NCBI GenBank assembly: GCA_021847345.1
Contig: JAJZTW010000016.1
Span: 1 to 63,440, forward strand
DNA from: Pseudomonadota bacterium
GTDB taxonomy: Bacteria > Pseudomonadota > Gammaproteobacteria > Burkholderiales > Burkholderiaceae_C
DNA length: 63,440 bases
Reading direction: 5' to 3'
This document shows positions 1 to 9,069 of the stretch, one piece after another. The stretch's first letter is position 1; every line of letters starts with the position of its first letter. The position numbers and the translations under genes are program-made. The notes below the pieces were generated by a model that worked only from the letters and a program-made list of their open reading frames with translations, made no database searches and was not told where the DNA came from.

Positions 1-109
1 CTCGAACTCGAACCAGCCTGAGCACCCATGCGGATCGCCACCCACTGCGCCAGCGCGCCACGGCAGCAACGTTCCTCATCGTCTGAGCCCGAGCCAAGCT
101 CCAGACGCC

Positions 110-140
110 AAAAAGCCCGAGTGGCGTGAGCCACTCGGGC
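110..140 (-). terminator. Rho-independent terminator, probably the displaced tRNA-Glu terminator
   Basis: A perfect 11-bp stem (GCCCGAGTGGC at 115-125 with GCCACTCGGGC at 130-140, loop GTGA) is followed on the minus strand by five T residues (plus-strand AAAAA, 110-114). It lies just outside the 13-bp repeat that copies the tRNA-Glu 3' end. I infer that it was the terminator of the tRNA-Ala/tRNA-Glu transcript before the element inserted. Confidence 0.85.
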
Positions 141-148
141 CTTGAAAC

Positions 149-161
149 TGGCGCCCCCTAG
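149..161. repeat. Candidate attL: partial copy of the tRNA-Glu 3' end
   Basis: TGGCGCCCCCTAG differs at one base from TGGCGTCCCCTAG at 4930-4942, which is the last 13 bases of tRNA-Glu read on the plus strand. The copy is followed outward by a minus-strand terminator, as expected for the sequence once adjacent to the tRNA. I read the two copies as left and right ends of the integrated element. With 12 of 13 matches it is short, so confidence is moderate. Confidence 0.6.
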
Positions 162-275
162 ATTTCCACACTCTCACCATGATTTAGCGCGACGCCCCAG
201 CTGGGAAGTGACGATAACGTTGAAAACGCCACGACTGCAACGGAGAAAGCGCCTTCGCTTCTAATCAGCAAACAC

Positions 276-1022
276 TTACGGCTGCAACCCGAGAGCCAGC
301 AAATCAGAAACCCGTTCAACTAATTCAACAAGATCGCGATCCATGAATTCCGAGCGCGCATCAGGTCTTGCAAGCAACCCGCTCTTAAAGACCGTTCCAC
401 CATATTTTTTGGCTACGTAAATGCAACGCTTACGCTTACCACGAATTGCGACGAACTCAGAATCAATAAGCAAAGCACGCGCAATGCGCTCGAGTTCAAT
501 CTCGCGCGCATTTTCTTCTTCATCGTCCGCCGCCTCCTTGAATTGATCTATGGCTGCAAGCAGGCGCTGACAAGCGCCGGATGCATAGCCAAGTGAGATT
601 GCATACGATCCGTGAAGCGCCAGAACCTCAAAATAAATATATCCTCCGCTTTCATGTTCCGCTTCTTTTGCCAAGAGACTATGTCTTCTCATGAAAGCGG
701 CAATTTGTCTTTCGCTGTCTTGCCCCTCGAACGCCTCATTGATAGCCTCCTGGACATCGAATGACGCAGAATATACAAAGACAATATCCGGCTTGATTGC
801 GCGCAGATAATCCATAAAGGGCTCAGCCTCTAAAATCACCACATTCGCCGCCTTTTGAATTAAATCAGCACACTCAATGGGCGCGACTCCTTCAGTTTTA
901 ATGGTCGCGATTGTCTGGGCAAGAAGCACAGATAGCGGCTGATTTGCGATGCAAAAAGATTCGGCATACATATCTTCTCCCAGCCGCCACGATGGCGCCA
1001 ATTGGTAGAAATTATCTGTCAA
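276..1022 (-). CDS. Hypothetical protein, low-GC island cargo
   Basis: This is an open frame of 248 residues from a TTG start. A better-supported start may be the ATG at 969-971 (231 residues), which has GGGAGA about six bases upstream. I do not recognise the family. The protein looks soluble, with an acidic stretch around residues 167-174 (DDEEENARE) followed by a basic patch (RGKRKR) and YVAKKYGG. No signal peptide or membrane segment is apparent. Base composition is clearly lower in G+C than the rest of the window, which indicates recent acquisition. It is the only clear cargo-type gene of the element and is transcribed toward its left end. A defence or effector role would be guesswork. 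Confidence 0.7.
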   Translation of the reverse strand: MTDNFYQLAPSWRLGEDMYAESFCIANQPLSVLLAQTIATIKTEGVAPIECADLIQKAANVVILEAEPFMDYLRAIKPDIVFVYSASFDVQEAINEAFEGQDSERQIAAFMRRHSLLAKEAEHESGGYIYFEVLALHGSYAISLGYASGACQRLLAAIDQFKEAADDEEENAREIELERIARALLIDSEFVAIRGKRKRCIYVAKKYGGTVFKSGLLARPDARSEFMDRDLVELVERVSDLLALGLQP

Positions 1023-1316
1023 ACGGGCCGACCGCAGATGGCTTACGTCATCTTCTCATGCATCTTCGCTTCCCATGCAGCATCCTTTCCATTGATCGTC
1101 GTCACATTGGAAGCCGACTCTTCCTGCAGCAAGTCCAGCAGCGCGTGGAGCGCAGCTCACTTCTCGGCTAGATGGTCGTGATCGTCGTAATGCCGGTCCT
1201 TACGTCCCCAAGGCATGGCTCTGTAGTCCTTGGCCGAATTACAGCCTCCGCCGAGCGGGAGGGCTGCACGAGCTGCCCGCGTGGCACGCCACCGGTTCGT
1301 GCAAGCGAGGTCTTAG

Positions 1317-1340
1317 GCTCAGCGCCTGCAGGCGCTGAGC
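1317..1340. repeat. 24-bp perfect palindrome
   Basis: GCTCAGCGCCTG is followed directly by its reverse complement CAGGCGCTGAGC. It opens the hairpin-dense block. Its role is unknown; it could be a dimeric protein site or part of an RNA fold. Confidence 0.8.
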
Positions 1341-1365
1341 TCGGGGGAGCCGCGAAGCGGGGGTG

Positions 1366-1380
1366 CGGGCGTCCAGCCCG
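1366..1380. repeat. Hairpin with GTCCA loop, copy 1
   Basis: Stem CGGGC (1366-1370) and GCCCG (1376-1380) closes a GTCCA loop. Flanking GCGGG and CCCGC can extend the stem. The same 15-base core recurs at 1697-1713 in a different sequence background. Confidence 0.7.
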
Positions 1381-1517
1381 TACCCGCAGGCGCGCGGCAG
1401 CGCGCAGGCCTGGGGGGAGCCGCCGTGGGGCCGGACACTGGCGGCGGGAGCGGTAGCGACCAAAGACAGGGTAGGCGCCACGAGTGGGGGGCGAAGCCCC
1501 GCCCCCCGCCGAAGGCA

Positions 1518-1615
1518 CGGGCAAAAGGCTTCGCGATGCCGCAAGGCACCCGACAGGGCAAGCTCAGCCGGGCCGCCAGGCACGGGTGAGCGCAGTCGGC
1601 GAAGCCTTTTGCCCG
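1518..1615. repeat. 17-bp inverted repeat, 64-base spacer
   Basis: The arm at 1518-1534 (CGGGCAAAAGGCTTCGC) is perfectly complementary to 1599-1615. Unlike most of the surroundings the arms include an A/T-rich core (AAAA/TTTT), so the match is not just a product of high G+C. It would form a long stem in RNA or a cruciform in DNA. Confidence 0.85.
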
Positions 1616-1695
1616 CGCATTCGCGCGGGGGGCCGCAAGCTGCATCCGCAGCGCGCAGCGAGCCGCAGGCGCGTAGGCAAGTCAGGGGGGCGGAT

Positions 1696-1714
1696 GCCGG
1701 GCGTCCAGCCCGGC
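1696..1714. repeat. Hairpin with GTCCA loop, copy 2
   Basis: Stem GCCGGGC (1696-1702) and GCCCGGC (1708-1714) closes the same GTCCA loop found at 1371-1375. The sequence just before it (GCGGATGC, 1690-1697) is complementary to 1642-1649, giving a compact nested structure. Confidence 0.7.
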
Positions 1715-1959
1715 AAGCACGCCGTCCGCCCCTAGGCGGCGAGGGCCGAAGGCACGCGAGGTGTGCGGTCGACTCCCTGGCGCGCAGGGTCGCAACGCGA
1801 CCCGAAGGGCCTTGACGTCACTGGATTGGCGAGGGCCGTGTCACTGGATTGACCTCTGGGGCTTCGAGCCCAGAGAGCCGACAGGGGATCGATCCAGCGG
1901 TCTTAATTCCTGGCGCGCCAAAGTTCCGTGGGCCTAGACGGTGCAAGGAGGACTTCATC

Positions 1960-2880
1960 GTGAGCAACTTGCCCCGCGAACATCATCATCTCAACGCCCA
2001 TGCGCGCCACCTGGAAAAGGCCCTGACCGCACTGCTCTGGACCGTCAGGTTCCGGTGGACGGCCACGCTGGTCATCGACCGCCTGCTGGGCGGCAACGGC
2101 CTTGTGCGCAAACTCATCGCGCGAAAGTTCTTGGTCGAGCACCGCGTCCCCAGTCCGTTCTCGCCCGTGCGCTATTACGTCACGCTGGGCTTGGAGGGTC
2201 TGGCGCTGCTGCAGCGGAACTGGCAGGCGATCGAGGGCGGCGCGTACGGCCACCTCGCCCTGTGCCTTTCCCGGTCCTTCGAATTGCCCATCCGCCCGGA
2301 CCATCGCATCCGCGAGCACCGCTTCGAGCACGATCTGCACCTGCAGTTCTTGGTCACAGACGAGTTTCGACGCGAGGGCCTGCGACTCCAATACCTGCAA
2401 CTGTCGGATGATCTTGAGCGAACGCCGCCGGCCAAGCGCCCCAGCAAGATTCCGGACGCGATCCTCCACCTGCGTTCGAAGGACGACCCCACCGATCCGA
2501 CGATCAGCACGCGCTGGATCGAGGTCGAGTATTCCAGGAAGAACTCCCGGGAAGTCGATACGTTTTGCGCGTACTACCGAGCCGCACTCGTCGGCAGCGC
2601 GAAAAAGCCGTTCGACGAGCTGATCATCTACTGCCATGCCTCGCTGTATGCTCAGTGGCGTCGGGACTTCCTACGGACGACCATTCCCAAGTGGATCTTC
2701 CGCAAGGACAAGCGCACCTGGGTACGCCTCGATCCGAAGGACTGGCTCCATTTCCCGGAGCTGACCTTCATGGATCGGTTCAAGTACGTCCAACAACTCC
2801 CAGCGGACGGCAAAAAGAGCTCGGCCGCGCAGGCGCCAGCGCGGGATGCGCTTGCGGCATCAGGACAACGCTCAGGCTAG
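1960..2880 (+). CDS. Replication-relaxation-like protein
   Basis: This codes for 306 residues from a GTG start, chosen because a perfect AAGGAGG lies eight bases upstream (1945-1951). The first ~100 residues look like a winged-helix domain ending in YYVTLGLEGLALL. The remainder contains HRFEHDLHLQFL, then PDAIL and WIEVEYSRKN, a spacing reminiscent of the PD-(D/E)XK-like half of replication-relaxation proteins of plasmids and integrative elements. Catalytic residues are not certain. It sits between the hairpin block and the recombinase, in the same orientation as the recombinase. The family call is from overall pattern and is moderate; a regulatory or replication role for the element is inferred. 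Confidence 0.6.
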   Translation: MSNLPREHHHLNAHARHLEKALTALLWTVRFRWTATLVIDRLLGGNGLVRKLIARKFLVEHRVPSPFSPVRYYVTLGLEGLALLQRNWQAIEGGAYGHLALCLSRSFELPIRPDHRIREHRFEHDLHLQFLVTDEFRREGLRLQYLQLSDDLERTPPAKRPSKIPDAILHLRSKDDPTDPTISTRWIEVEYSRKNSREVDTFCAYYRAALVGSAKKPFDELIIYCHASLYAQWRRDFLRTTIPKWIFRKDKRTWVRLDPKDWLHFPELTFMDRFKYVQQLPADGKKSSAAQAPARDALAASGQRSG

Positions 2881-2959
2881 CTCCCGCGTCCCGGCGTCAA
2901 GGGTGAAGGCTTGCGCCCGGGCCTGCGGCCCGCCCTTGACTCCGGGCCTGCTGCGGGAG
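2881..2959. repeat. Long imperfect hairpin downstream of the replication-relaxation gene
   Basis: Nested complementary blocks run inward: CTCCCGC (2881-2887) with GCGGGAG (2953-2959), GTCAAGGG (2896-2903) with CCCTTGAC (2933-2940), and an internal GGGCC-TGC-GGCCC loop. It begins right after the stop codon. There is no T run, so this is not a standard terminator. It may end or stabilise the upstream transcript. Confidence 0.6.
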
Positions 2960-3187
2960 CTGCTGGAGCGCCGCCCCGACGCCGCAAGCACCTCCCACGC
3001 GAAAGGCCGCGCCTGGCTCACACACTGACGCTGACACCGCGCATGCGGCCCCTTCCCCCCGCCCTTCCCCTGCCCGGGGAAGGGAGCGCCCCTCTGCCGC
3101 AATCACCTTGCTCGTCCACGCCAGCAACATCGAGCGCCCGGAAATTTCTCAGCAGGATTTGTTTTTGGGCTGCCTTCTGTGCAGCGG
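2960..3187. other. Gap before the small recombinase-linked ORF
   Basis: No convincing gene. It contains a perfect 9-bp hairpin (CCCTTCCCC 3062-3070 with GGGGAAGGG 3076-3084) with no T tract, then a more A/T-rich stretch (about 3125-3215) that may hold the promoter of the following genes. I could not assign -35 and -10 boxes with confidence. Confidence 0.4.
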
Positions 3188-3415
3188 ATGGAAATCAAAA
3201 CTATCGATCGGCCATCCCTGCCTTCCACCCACCAGGCCGATATCCAACCTACGGCGCCTAAGCCTCTGCGCCGGCGCAGCAAGCGGCTGGCGCCCATGAC
3301 GGTCGACACTCTGGGCGAACCCGTGAACCTTGCCGGGATGGCGACATTGCTGCTACACCTGCATCGTAAGCAGCTTGCCCAGCCGCGCCCACACGAGGTT
3401 CAAGACGATGACTGA
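3188..3415 (+). CDS. Small hypothetical protein overlapping the recombinase start
   Basis: A 75-residue frame from ATG; a GTG three codons upstream is also possible. It is basic in the middle (PLRRRSKRLAP) with a leucine-rich helix near the end (NLAGMATLLLHLHRKQL) and an acidic tail. The last eight bases overlap the recombinase start (ATGACTGA), the pattern of translational coupling. Size, charge and position would suit an accessory factor such as an excisionase-like protein, but no family is recognised. It could be a fortuitous frame. Confidence 0.45.
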   Translation: MEIKTIDRPSLPSTHQADIQPTAPKPLRRRSKRLAPMTVDTLGEPVNLAGMATLLLHLHRKQLAQPRPHEVQDDD

Positions 3416-4970
3416 CGAACACCGCGCCGCCCTCTACCTGCGTTCTAGCAAGGACCGCAACGACGTGTCGATCGACGCGCAGCGCCGCGCGCTGCATGAG
3501 CTGGCCATCGCGCACAAGCTGGTCGTGGTGCATGAGTTCGCCGATGCCGTCGAAAGCGGCAAGGACGAGATGCGCCCGGGCTTCATCGCGCTGCGCGAGG
3601 CCGTGAAGAACCCCAGGCGTGGCTGGTCGCATCTATGCGTGCTGGACACCAGCAGGGTGGCGCGCAAGCAGCTGATCGCGATGGCCTTCGAGCACGACTG
3701 CGAGCGCTTCGCTGTGAAGGTTCTGTACAAGACCCTTCCGGACATTGATCCGATCTACGCCAACTTCATGCGCTCGATCATGCAGGCTATCGACGAGTTG
3801 CACTCGATGACCAGCAAGGCCAAGGGCATGGCCGGCATGGCGGAGAACGTGCACAAGGGCTGGCGCGCTGGCGGCAGCGCGCCGCGCGGCTATTCGCTGG
3901 AGCATGTGCCCACCGGGGCCATCCGCGATGGCCTGCCGGTGATGAAAAGCCGCCTGGTGCCGAACGAGGATGCCCAGCTCGTCGCGGCCTACCTGCGCGG
4001 CCGCGCGGCGGGCAAGTCTCGTATGGAACTGGTGCGACAGCTCGGCATCCCGTGGAAGGTCGACGGGCTCAACGGCATGGAGTGGATGGCGTTGACCTAC
4101 GCCGGGCACACGGTGTGGGGCGTGCATGCCGAGCGCAGCGCCCAGGGCGGCTACCTCGGCGGCGAGAAGCGCCGCCCGCGGTCGGAATGGCTGGTCAAGC
4201 GCGACACCCACCCTGCCCTGATCAGCGACGCCGAGGCCGAGTTTGTCCTGATGCAGATCGAGCGCGGCCGCACCCGGCGCACGCGCAAGAGCAACCACCC
4301 CTACCTGCTGACCGGGCTGCTGGTCGACGGCCAGGGACGGCCGTGGCATGGCGAGTGGGACGTGCGCAACGACAGCGGCATGTACCGACTGGTGCACGAG
4401 AAGAAGGTGGCCGCGCACCGGGTCGACGACCCGGTGCTGGAGCGGATCCTCGCCGACCTGCGCGCCCCGGAGACGGTCGACCGGCTGCTGCAGACGCTGC
4501 GCGGCCAGATGGGCGAGGTGCAGGCGCCCGACGGGCGCGCGATCGCGGGCAAGGAGAAGCGCCTGGACGCGCTGACGCGCAAGATCTCGCAGCTGATCGA
4601 CCTGCAGTTGGAGGCGCCGACGCCCGAGACCCGCCTAGCCTATGCGCGCAGCGTCGAGCAGTCGGAGGCGGAGCGTGCGCTGGTGGCGCGGGAGCTGGAG
4701 CAGTTGCGCGCGGACGGTCAGGTGCAGCGCGACGCGCAGGGGCTGGAGCGCCGCGACGTCGTTGCTCTGCTGGATGACTTGTTCGCCCGGATCAAGGGCG
4801 GGCTGGATGCGGATGACCTGGAAAAAACAAAGGCCGCATTGAGCGGCCTTGTTCATCGCATCGAGCTGGAACCGGGAGCGGATACGCTCCGGATCTGCTA
4901 TCAAGTCGAACCCTTGACAGGGTTTAACTTGGCGTCCCCTAGGGGATTCGAACCCCTGTTATCGCCGTGA
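3408..4970 (+). CDS. Large serine recombinase (element integrase)
   Basis: The protein has 520 residues from an ATG following ACGAGG. The N-terminal resolvase domain begins AALYLRSSKDRNDVSIDAQR, with the serine of YLRSS as likely nucleophile. A recombinase domain follows (LVPNEDAQLVAAYLRGRAAGKSRMELV), and then a zinc-ribbon-like region without an obvious cysteine set. A helical stretch rich in Glu, Lys and Arg comes next (about residues 390-460). The last codons, reading ASPRGFEPLLSP, are encoded by the tRNA-Glu gene itself and the TGA stop overlaps the tRNA anticodon. This tail is a product of the integrated state, since excision would join a different sequence. It probably catalyses integration and excision at tRNA-Glu. 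Confidence 0.88.
   Translation: MTDEHRAALYLRSSKDRNDVSIDAQRRALHELAIAHKLVVVHEFADAVESGKDEMRPGFIALREAVKNPRRGWSHLCVLDTSRVARKQLIAMAFEHDCERFAVKVLYKTLPDIDPIYANFMRSIMQAIDELHSMTSKAKGMAGMAENVHKGWRAGGSAPRGYSLEHVPTGAIRDGLPVMKSRLVPNEDAQLVAAYLRGRAAGKSRMELVRQLGIPWKVDGLNGMEWMALTYAGHTVWGVHAERSAQGGYLGGEKRRPRSEWLVKRDTHPALISDAEAEFVLMQIERGRTRRTRKSNHPYLLTGLLVDGQGRPWHGEWDVRNDSGMYRLVHEKKVAAHRVDDPVLERILADLRAPETVDRLLQTLRGQMGEVQAPDGRAIAGKEKRLDALTRKISQLIDLQLEAPTPETRLAYARSVEQSEAERALVARELEQLRADGQVQRDAQGLERRDVVALLDDLFARIKGGLDADDLEKTKAALSGLVHRIELEPGADTLRICYQVEPLTGFNLASPRGFEPLLSP
4822..4850 (-). terminator. Antisense terminator for the tRNA operon, inside the recombinase gene
   Basis: AAGGCCGC (4830-4837) pairs with GCGGCCTT (4843-4850) around a five-base loop. 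On the minus strand the hairpin is followed by TTTGTTTTTT (plus 4822-4829 is A-rich), an excellent intrinsic terminator about 80 bases past tRNA-Glu. The same bases encode recombinase codons (EKTKAALSGLVH). It would replace the host terminator moved away by insertion. Confidence 0.82.
4909..4924. repeat. Short dyad beside the tRNA end
   Basis: AACCCT (4909-4914) and AGGGTT (4919-4924) form a perfect 6-bp dyad six bases from the tRNA 3' end. It could be a recombinase half-site pair or a minor hairpin. Function unknown. Confidence 0.35.
4930..4942. repeat. Candidate attR: tRNA-Glu 3' terminal 13 bases
   Basis: TGGCGTCCCCTAG is the encoded CCA end, discriminator and acceptor strand of tRNA-Glu read on the plus strand. 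It matches 149-161 at 12 of 13 positions and marks the right end of the element. Confidence 0.6.
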
Positions 4971-5005
4971 AAGGGCGGTGTCCTAGGCCTCTAGACGAAG
5001 GGGAC
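4930..5005 (-). tRNA. tRNA-Glu (anticodon TTC)
   Basis: A 76-base gene with encoded CCA. Acceptor stem GTCCCCT pairs with AGGGGAC, the T arm reads GGGGTTCGAATCCCC, and the anticodon loop is CTTTCAC. It lies 32 bases downstream of tRNA-Ala on the same strand. It is the integration site of the element to its left, and integration keeps the full tRNA sequence intact. Confidence 0.97.
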
Positions 5006-5037
5006 AGGACGTACTGCGAACTACCTTTTTGCTTGGT

Positions 5038-5113
<76 letters not shown>

Positions 5114-5145
5114 GCAAGCAAAGACGTGAATATTAGCTGATTTTT

Positions 5146-5190
5146 CGTGAAGTGCGCAAGTCCCATCGTGTGGAACCTGCGCACTTCACG
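5146..5190 (-). repeat. 13-bp inverted repeat after lon
   Basis: CGTGAAGTGCGCA (5146-5158) is perfectly complementary to 5178-5190, with a 19-base loop, starting 11 bases past the lon stop. On the lon strand it is followed by AAAAATC rather than a T run, so it is not a classic terminator. It may protect the lon mRNA 3' end or separate lon from the tRNA genes. Confidence 0.75.
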
Positions 5191-5201
5191 GGTGGCTTCG
5201 C

Positions 5202-7634
<2,433 letters not shown>

Positions 7635-7800
7635 GTTGGCCCCCTGTAGGAATCATGGTGCACAGATGGGGAGCCCGGCGCGGATTGCAAGCCCGCGCGT
7701 TCGGCGCCCCCTGAAATGCCGAATCAGCTCTCGCACCGCAAGCTCAGGGCGCATGCGGTGCGAAAGCGGGTGCCGGGGCGGCGTGGGCCGCCGCGGGTGC

Positions 7801-9069
<1,269 letters not shown>

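Follow-up and report, generated by a model that had tools for sequence, protein, structure and literature searches.

Read on the opposite strand, the final codons of a large serine integrase gene are predicted to form an intrinsic terminator that refits the 3' end of a tRNA operon cut by integration at that site, a reading to which we assign a probability of roughly three in four from the sequence comparisons set out below. The window analyzed here is a whole contig of 63,440 nucleotides from a genus of 28 genomes that includes Thiomonas delicata. The genes for tRNA-Ala and tRNA-Glu are located after lon on the minus strand, and the integrase gene is convergent with tRNA-Glu. The relevant features of the window are as follows.

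110-143, minus strand: native terminator of the tRNA operon, displaced by the insert (from comparison with loci lacking the integrase)
149-158, plus strand: displaced copy of the att core, TGGCGCCCCC, differing by a single base and lying at the insert's far end
276-1022, minus strand: 248-amino-acid ORF near the far end
3408-4970, plus strand: large serine integrase, 520 codons plus stop
4822-4829, minus strand: U-tract of the terminator, TGTTTTTT (terminator scan)
4830-4850, minus strand: hairpin of the antisense intrinsic terminator (terminator scan, folding)
4872-4893, minus strand: another hairpin of the trailer, located between tRNA-Glu and the terminator
4902-4931, minus strand: trailer hairpin right after tRNA-Glu, including ACAGGGTTTAA, read as an attP arm
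4930-4939, plus strand: att core TGGCGTCCCC on the tRNA side (attR), identical to the 3' end of tRNA-Glu
4930-5005, minus strand: tRNA-Glu (TTC), the integration target, transcribed towards the terminator
5038-5113, minus strand: tRNA-Ala (GGC), the upstream gene of the pair

An earlier note on this DNA had placed an antisense intrinsic terminator in the 3' coding region of the recombinase, about 80 bases after tRNA-Glu, and both points are borne out: the signal runs from 4850 to 4822 on the minus strand, 79 nt downstream of tRNA-Glu, and lies in frame among the last codons of ORF 3408-4970. The hairpin (4850-4830; AAGGCCGC-TCAAT-GCGGCCTT on the minus strand) has eight pairs, six of them G-C, a loop of five and a predicted folding energy of -14.8 kcal/mol, and the U-tract TGTTTTTT follows directly 3' of it, giving the G+C-rich stem, short loop and immediate U-tract of an intrinsic terminator. 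Over the first 5.2 kb of the minus strand, this signal was outscored only by the native terminator at its displaced site and by a hairpin behind lon with a weak tail, and the same kind of hairpin tail was found at two other places in the genus. None of 100 dinucleotide shuffles of the 215-nt stretch matched the score, which was reached in 12 of 3000 trials with one codon table and 11 of 3000 with another when the last 67 codons before att were re-sampled synonymously, and in 34 of 3000 when the stretch's own synonymous codons were permuted. The rare codons ACA, GCA, CTT and GTT (0.04-0.05 each) lie on or beside the hairpin, and a loose promoter/terminator scan was not significant alone (five in 8 kb, both strands, against 5.7 expected). 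As the significance from the single sequence is moderate, the case is carried by comparative evidence. Termination on the sense strand at the same hairpin was considered and rejected, since the sense score was 28.7 against 35.1 antisense and the integrase would be truncated.

An Rfam search of window positions 1-8000 placed the two tRNAs alone above threshold. The att core coincides with the 3' end of tRNA-Glu and a displaced copy lies at the far end of the insert, the arrangement looked for in targeting of a tRNA 3' end, and the last 13 residues of the integrase, LASPRGFEPLLSP, are the antisense reading of tRNA-Glu (4932-4970, plus strand). On the circle the protein would have another C terminus, as seen in free phage forms, and protein records ending in an antisense-tRNA tail may point to integration at tRNA-Glu. 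By eye, a second attP arm of the window integrase was not recognizable at 159-190, so the element as it now stands may be a composite or may have decayed. Three inserts have similar far ends (window 159-190; L072 after 3060; L080), with no recognizable second attP arm of the window integrase, and they may be composites or may be linked to a different recombinase. For the 248-amino-acid ORF at 276-1022, neither PHROG (E 0.01) nor Pfam (E 0.001) gave a match; circularization would orient it towards the integrase 3' end.

The earlier note had also supposed that insertion separated the tRNA genes from their own terminator, which it put at 110-140, and sites without the integrase show this to be so. 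A terminator nearly identical to window 110-143 lies directly after tRNA-Glu in L004, L005, L009, L018 and L020; in the window, and likewise in remnant G008, the native terminator lies beyond the second att core copy, and together with the integrase-free sister sites this means that the insert parted the operon from its terminator. One of these sites, G016 (L018/L080), is not a clean empty site, as a second native terminator copy and a partial att core are found ~ 7.8 kb further; the ORFs between the two terminator copies in L080 look metabolic by eye. The displaced native terminators of the window and G008 still pair on folding, so a loss of constraint on them is not seen. The G008 (L072) copy had been a candidate for a decayed terminator (-19.0 kcal/mol, against -24.7 for an undisplaced copy), which was rejected because it pairs by way of two G-U pairs.

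What follows tRNA-Glu was compared at 20 loci, namely those of the 19 of 28 genus genomes with a lon-linked tRNA pair, together with L064, which is not lon-linked in the DNA examined; the other nine genomes gave no lon-linked tRNA pair. The native terminator was found in five, tRNA-Asp came next in four, an integrase-coding 3' end was present in five (the window, L061, L062, L063 and L064), integrase remnants in five (L065, L066, L011, L014 and L016) and another terminator, at a contig end, in one (L019). Among the coding loci, L062 is frameshifted further up, L063 is truncated on the 5' side and L064 is truncated close to the contig end. A terminator-like hairpin with a U-tract lay downstream in all 20 loci, 18 of them called by the scan and two by eye (L013, where the loop is too long for the scan, and L019, cut by the contig end). 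In the ten loci with integrase sequence or a remnant of it, the hairpin ends 99-102 nt downstream of where the CCA of the tRNA begins. The terminator is retained in all five remnants: only the last 49-64 integrase residues were found in the DNA examined from L065, L066 and L011, L016 retains a diverged, frame-broken integrase stretch, and in L014 the homology beyond the tRNA is weak. L062 also holds a second, partial integrase copy (425-1234), which has the same antisense terminator and no att core. The deletion end points of three remnants fall just beyond the terminator; these were too few and were not used as evidence.

Across the eight close loci, three of which are remnants in which no further integrase sequence was found, none of the 24 stem and tail positions was variable, compared with 23 of 100 in the surroundings (Fisher p 0.007; one extra T in the L011 tail was excluded from the count), and the loop varied at four of its five positions. 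The five coding loci alone gave p 0.07 and the three close remnants alone p 0.04. When the two diverged loci were added, 6 of 24 positions were variable against 80 of 100 (p 7e-7), and by inspection the L014 stem carries one G-C to A-U double change and has lost two outer A-U pairs. The phage locus L119, with an integrase protein 55% identical to that of the window, has the same stem at the same place; its six stem codons are all identical to the window's, set against a same-codon rate of 0.42 (111/267) for identical residues, and its tail, TTGATCGTTTTT, is weak. Free synonymous change in the hairpin, which the earlier note had named as a finding that would count against it, is therefore not what was seen, whether in the close loci (0/24 against 23/100) or in L119 (6/6 codons). 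A replacement terminator brought by the element, also proposed there, is supported by this conservation and by the retention in remnants, from which termination by RNA polymerase at the site, and a selective reason for it, are inferred.

Relatives of the integrase were collected from genome searches at the level of family (399 genomes), order (399) and class (369), with the weak matches that made up most of the 62 and 21 genomes in two of the searches left out, and a family profile found at least 70 loci in IMG/VR (by short patterns, not exhaustively). The single window protein gave no match in IMG/VR, no place covering 80% of it was found in the plasmid and phage collections, nor any covering 80% of the L119 protein in the phage collection, and the genus of G553 held no second member (1/5 genomes). 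There were 87 family loci with a match. Nine were without a core by pattern (five hold the core reversed, L160 has none at the ORF end, and L182-L184 are fragments), and removal of four exact duplicates from the other 78 left 74 distinct stretches, among which the L174 core is spurious, L121 and L173 have a one-letter core variant and L067 is a remnant. The integrase frame runs through the att core in 78 of 78 core-placed loci. The core abuts tRNA-Glu in 26 (one locus counted twice) and matches the tRNA-Glu T-arm in 13, 12 within 50 nt of the sequence end and the thirteenth, L147, probably a free form; in 39, including the spurious-looking L174, no tRNA follows the core. Inverted attP arms surround the core in 19 of 39 free forms, compared with 14 of 780 control positions, and were not seen in the other 20 at the same threshold. 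From this placement the family is predicted to be specific for tRNA-Glu, with its gene running through attP.

YxRxS is the catalytic motif of the N-terminal resolvase domain of serine integrases. In the family Y10, R12 and S14 are invariant in 32 aligned rows, PF00239 was found in 8 of 8 members tested, and PF07508 reached E 0.001 in only two of the eight. A model of the window integrase (mean pLDDT 83.6, pTM 0.40) falls below 50 in the swappable tail, residues 502-520; its best structural matches are full-length serine integrases, in keeping with a long C-terminal recombinase and coiled-coil region, with TM-scores of 0.19-0.37 for the top nine, which leave the domain placement unsettled. The protein is accordingly classed by motif and domain as a large serine integrase, predicted to recombine attP with attB.

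The recurrence of the signal in this tRNA-Glu-specific serine integrase family goes beyond the earlier note. An antisense terminator scoring at least 34 within 200 nt next to att was found in 11 of the 74 distinct stretches (0.37 expected from dinucleotide shuffles) and in 1 of 363 control windows taken from the same integrase genes; this cut-off was chosen after the scores were seen, and at a cut-off of 28 the count is 18 of 74 against 3.3 expected. The 11 are five of the window clade, L187, L118, L124, L141, L145 and the remnant L067, the tails of L145 and L067 being weak, and counted by lineage they come to 7 of 70 against 1 of 363 (p 1.5e-5). Long stems followed by good tails are found in several distant members, and in L118 (same locus as L086) the terminator lies in an added C-terminal stretch. 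On a quick tree, with many open forks and the fragments left out, the terminator label changes six times by gain or loss, four of the changes being forced by starred branches. The other 63 near-att stretches fall below the cut-off of 34. Hairpins scoring at least 26 regardless of tail occur in 23 of 74, compared with 16 of 656 control windows and 0.65 expected from shuffles, and most strong near-att hairpins have no U-tract; L033, L083, L068, L164, L156, L130 and L186 have strong hairpins next to att without a good one. Among 36 members with a strong near-att hairpin, a good U-tract lay antisense in seven and sense in two (paired p 0.024), the window clade being scored in this count on the trailer hairpin and not on the terminator. 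Since gene-internal hairpins lean likewise (good tails antisense in four and sense in two of 81), the strand asymmetry of the tail is weak evidence.

The core runs in the opposite direction relative to the integrase in L142, L146, L148, L153 and L159. In three of these, tRNA-Asp(GTC) and an intrinsic terminator are predicted right after attP (IMG/VR):

L142, 2967-3172: attP-adjacent tRNA-Asp and terminator, score 33.9
L148, 4269-4471: attP-adjacent tRNA-Asp and terminator, score 32.3
L153, 4088-4299: attP-adjacent tRNA-Asp and terminator, score 39.9

In L159 a terminator scoring 40.2 follows attP without tRNA-Asp, so a terminator lies on the tRNA side in 4 of 4 reversed loci with enough downstream DNA (scores 32.3-40.2; L146 is excluded, as the sequence ends there). 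Four loci of the window's genus have tRNA-Glu followed by tRNA-Asp, and a phage of the L142, L148 or L153 type would, after integration, restore tRNA-Glu, tRNA-Asp and the terminator. The L142 attP/tRNA-Asp stretch has matches in 178 phage records, each covering no more than 80% of it, and the best 15 of the 178 cover the tRNA-Asp part alone. The terminator of the reversed group also follows the integrase gene, which makes the group an unclean control, and it could simply be the integrase's own.

It is proposed that integration at the 3' end of tRNA-Glu carries the native terminator of the operon off to the element's far end and places the convergent integrase 3' end directly downstream of the tRNA. 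The tRNA-Ala/tRNA-Glu transcript would then stop at the antisense terminator, after a trailer of ~ 110 nt, and be kept from proceeding antisense into the integrase gene; on the circle, transcripts that cross attP would meet this signal and end there too. With the native terminator displaced, the host would depend on the new one, and such dependence would let the terminator persist after the integrase decays. On balance, the tRNA-Glu-specific family as a whole seems to be under selection to keep transcription of the operon intact, either by an antisense terminator with a swappable C-terminal tail or, where attP is reversed, by a terminator or tRNA-Asp plus terminator beside attP, with hosts keeping the refits as scars after decay.

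The terminator might instead serve the element, ending attP-crossing transcripts in the circle, with the effect on the tRNAs a by-product. Of the 33 free forms for which downstream DNA exists, 21 have a next ORF convergent with the integrase and 12 a co-directional one (by greedy ORF picking, with no gene caller and two near-identical pairs included), and ORF 276-1022 of the window would likewise be convergent in the circle. A role in the circle, however, leaves unexplained the retention in remnants where nothing of the integrase beyond its 3' end was found, and as a separate account it is thought unlikely; it is compatible with a refitted tRNA operon and does not exclude it. Also improbable is that the hairpins next to att function at the DNA level or in protein binding, for instance as an accessory site for the integrase or its directionality factor, or that they shield an RNA 3' end generated by Rho or a nuclease, the U-tract of the window clade being incidental. 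Strong near-att hairpins are indeed commoner than U-tracts and most are without a tail, but in the window clade stem and U-tract are invariant around a variable loop, as a terminator needs, and the long stems of distant members carry good tails. Chance combined with coding constraint, whereby the conserved residues EKTKAAL(S/G)GLV happen to yield a hairpin, is already disfavoured and seems very improbable: some 0.4 to 1.1% of synonymous re-samplings or permutations do reach the score, but the stem and tail do not vary in three remnants for which the rest of the gene was not found, the stem codons are identical in L119, and the signal recurs in other lineages at other positions.

Terminators refitted in this way would be of interest beyond the window. 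Elements that insert at tRNA genes restore the tRNA; to our knowledge, the fate of the operon's terminator is less often asked about. The window seems to offer a concrete case of dual coding across strands, in which a protein gene conceals a terminator that the element apparently brings and on which the host apparently comes to depend, and such dependence would be a way to fix the scars of mobile elements. Its conserved tRNA target might also make this serine integrase family useful as a tool. The family resembles Bxb1, PhiC31 and TP901-1 in fold, catalytic domain and symmetric attP arms; well-known large serine integrases use sites other than tRNA genes. The integrase of ICEKp1 is a tyrosine integrase and that of the window a serine integrase. 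In ICEKp1 (PMC13023037), integration at the 3' end of tRNA-Asn parts the tRNA gene from its Rho-independent terminator, which comes to lie on the other side of the element, as in the window; unlike the ICEKp1 integrase gene, described there as co-directional and transcribed from the tRNA promoter, the window's is convergent and has a predicted replacement terminator on its antisense strand. The IntP of phage Mx8 and the SSV integrases extend across attP according to the available part of PMC4383910, which restricts the word integrase to the tyrosine family. The frame of the window integrase crosses attP as theirs do, so that integration alters the C terminus, and that part of PMC4383910 describes no antisense terminator in them. 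In the available parts of the open-licence literature, neither a serine integrase at tRNA-Glu nor an antisense terminator in one was found. Ordinary terminators of the genus, for example AAGGCCGGCAATGCCGGCCTTTGTTTTTC elsewhere in G001, share the form of the window's, which is distinguished by lying inside a protein-coding frame on the other strand. The predicted signal is thus of a common type, its location is what is unusual, and it recurs in several lineages of a single integrase family.
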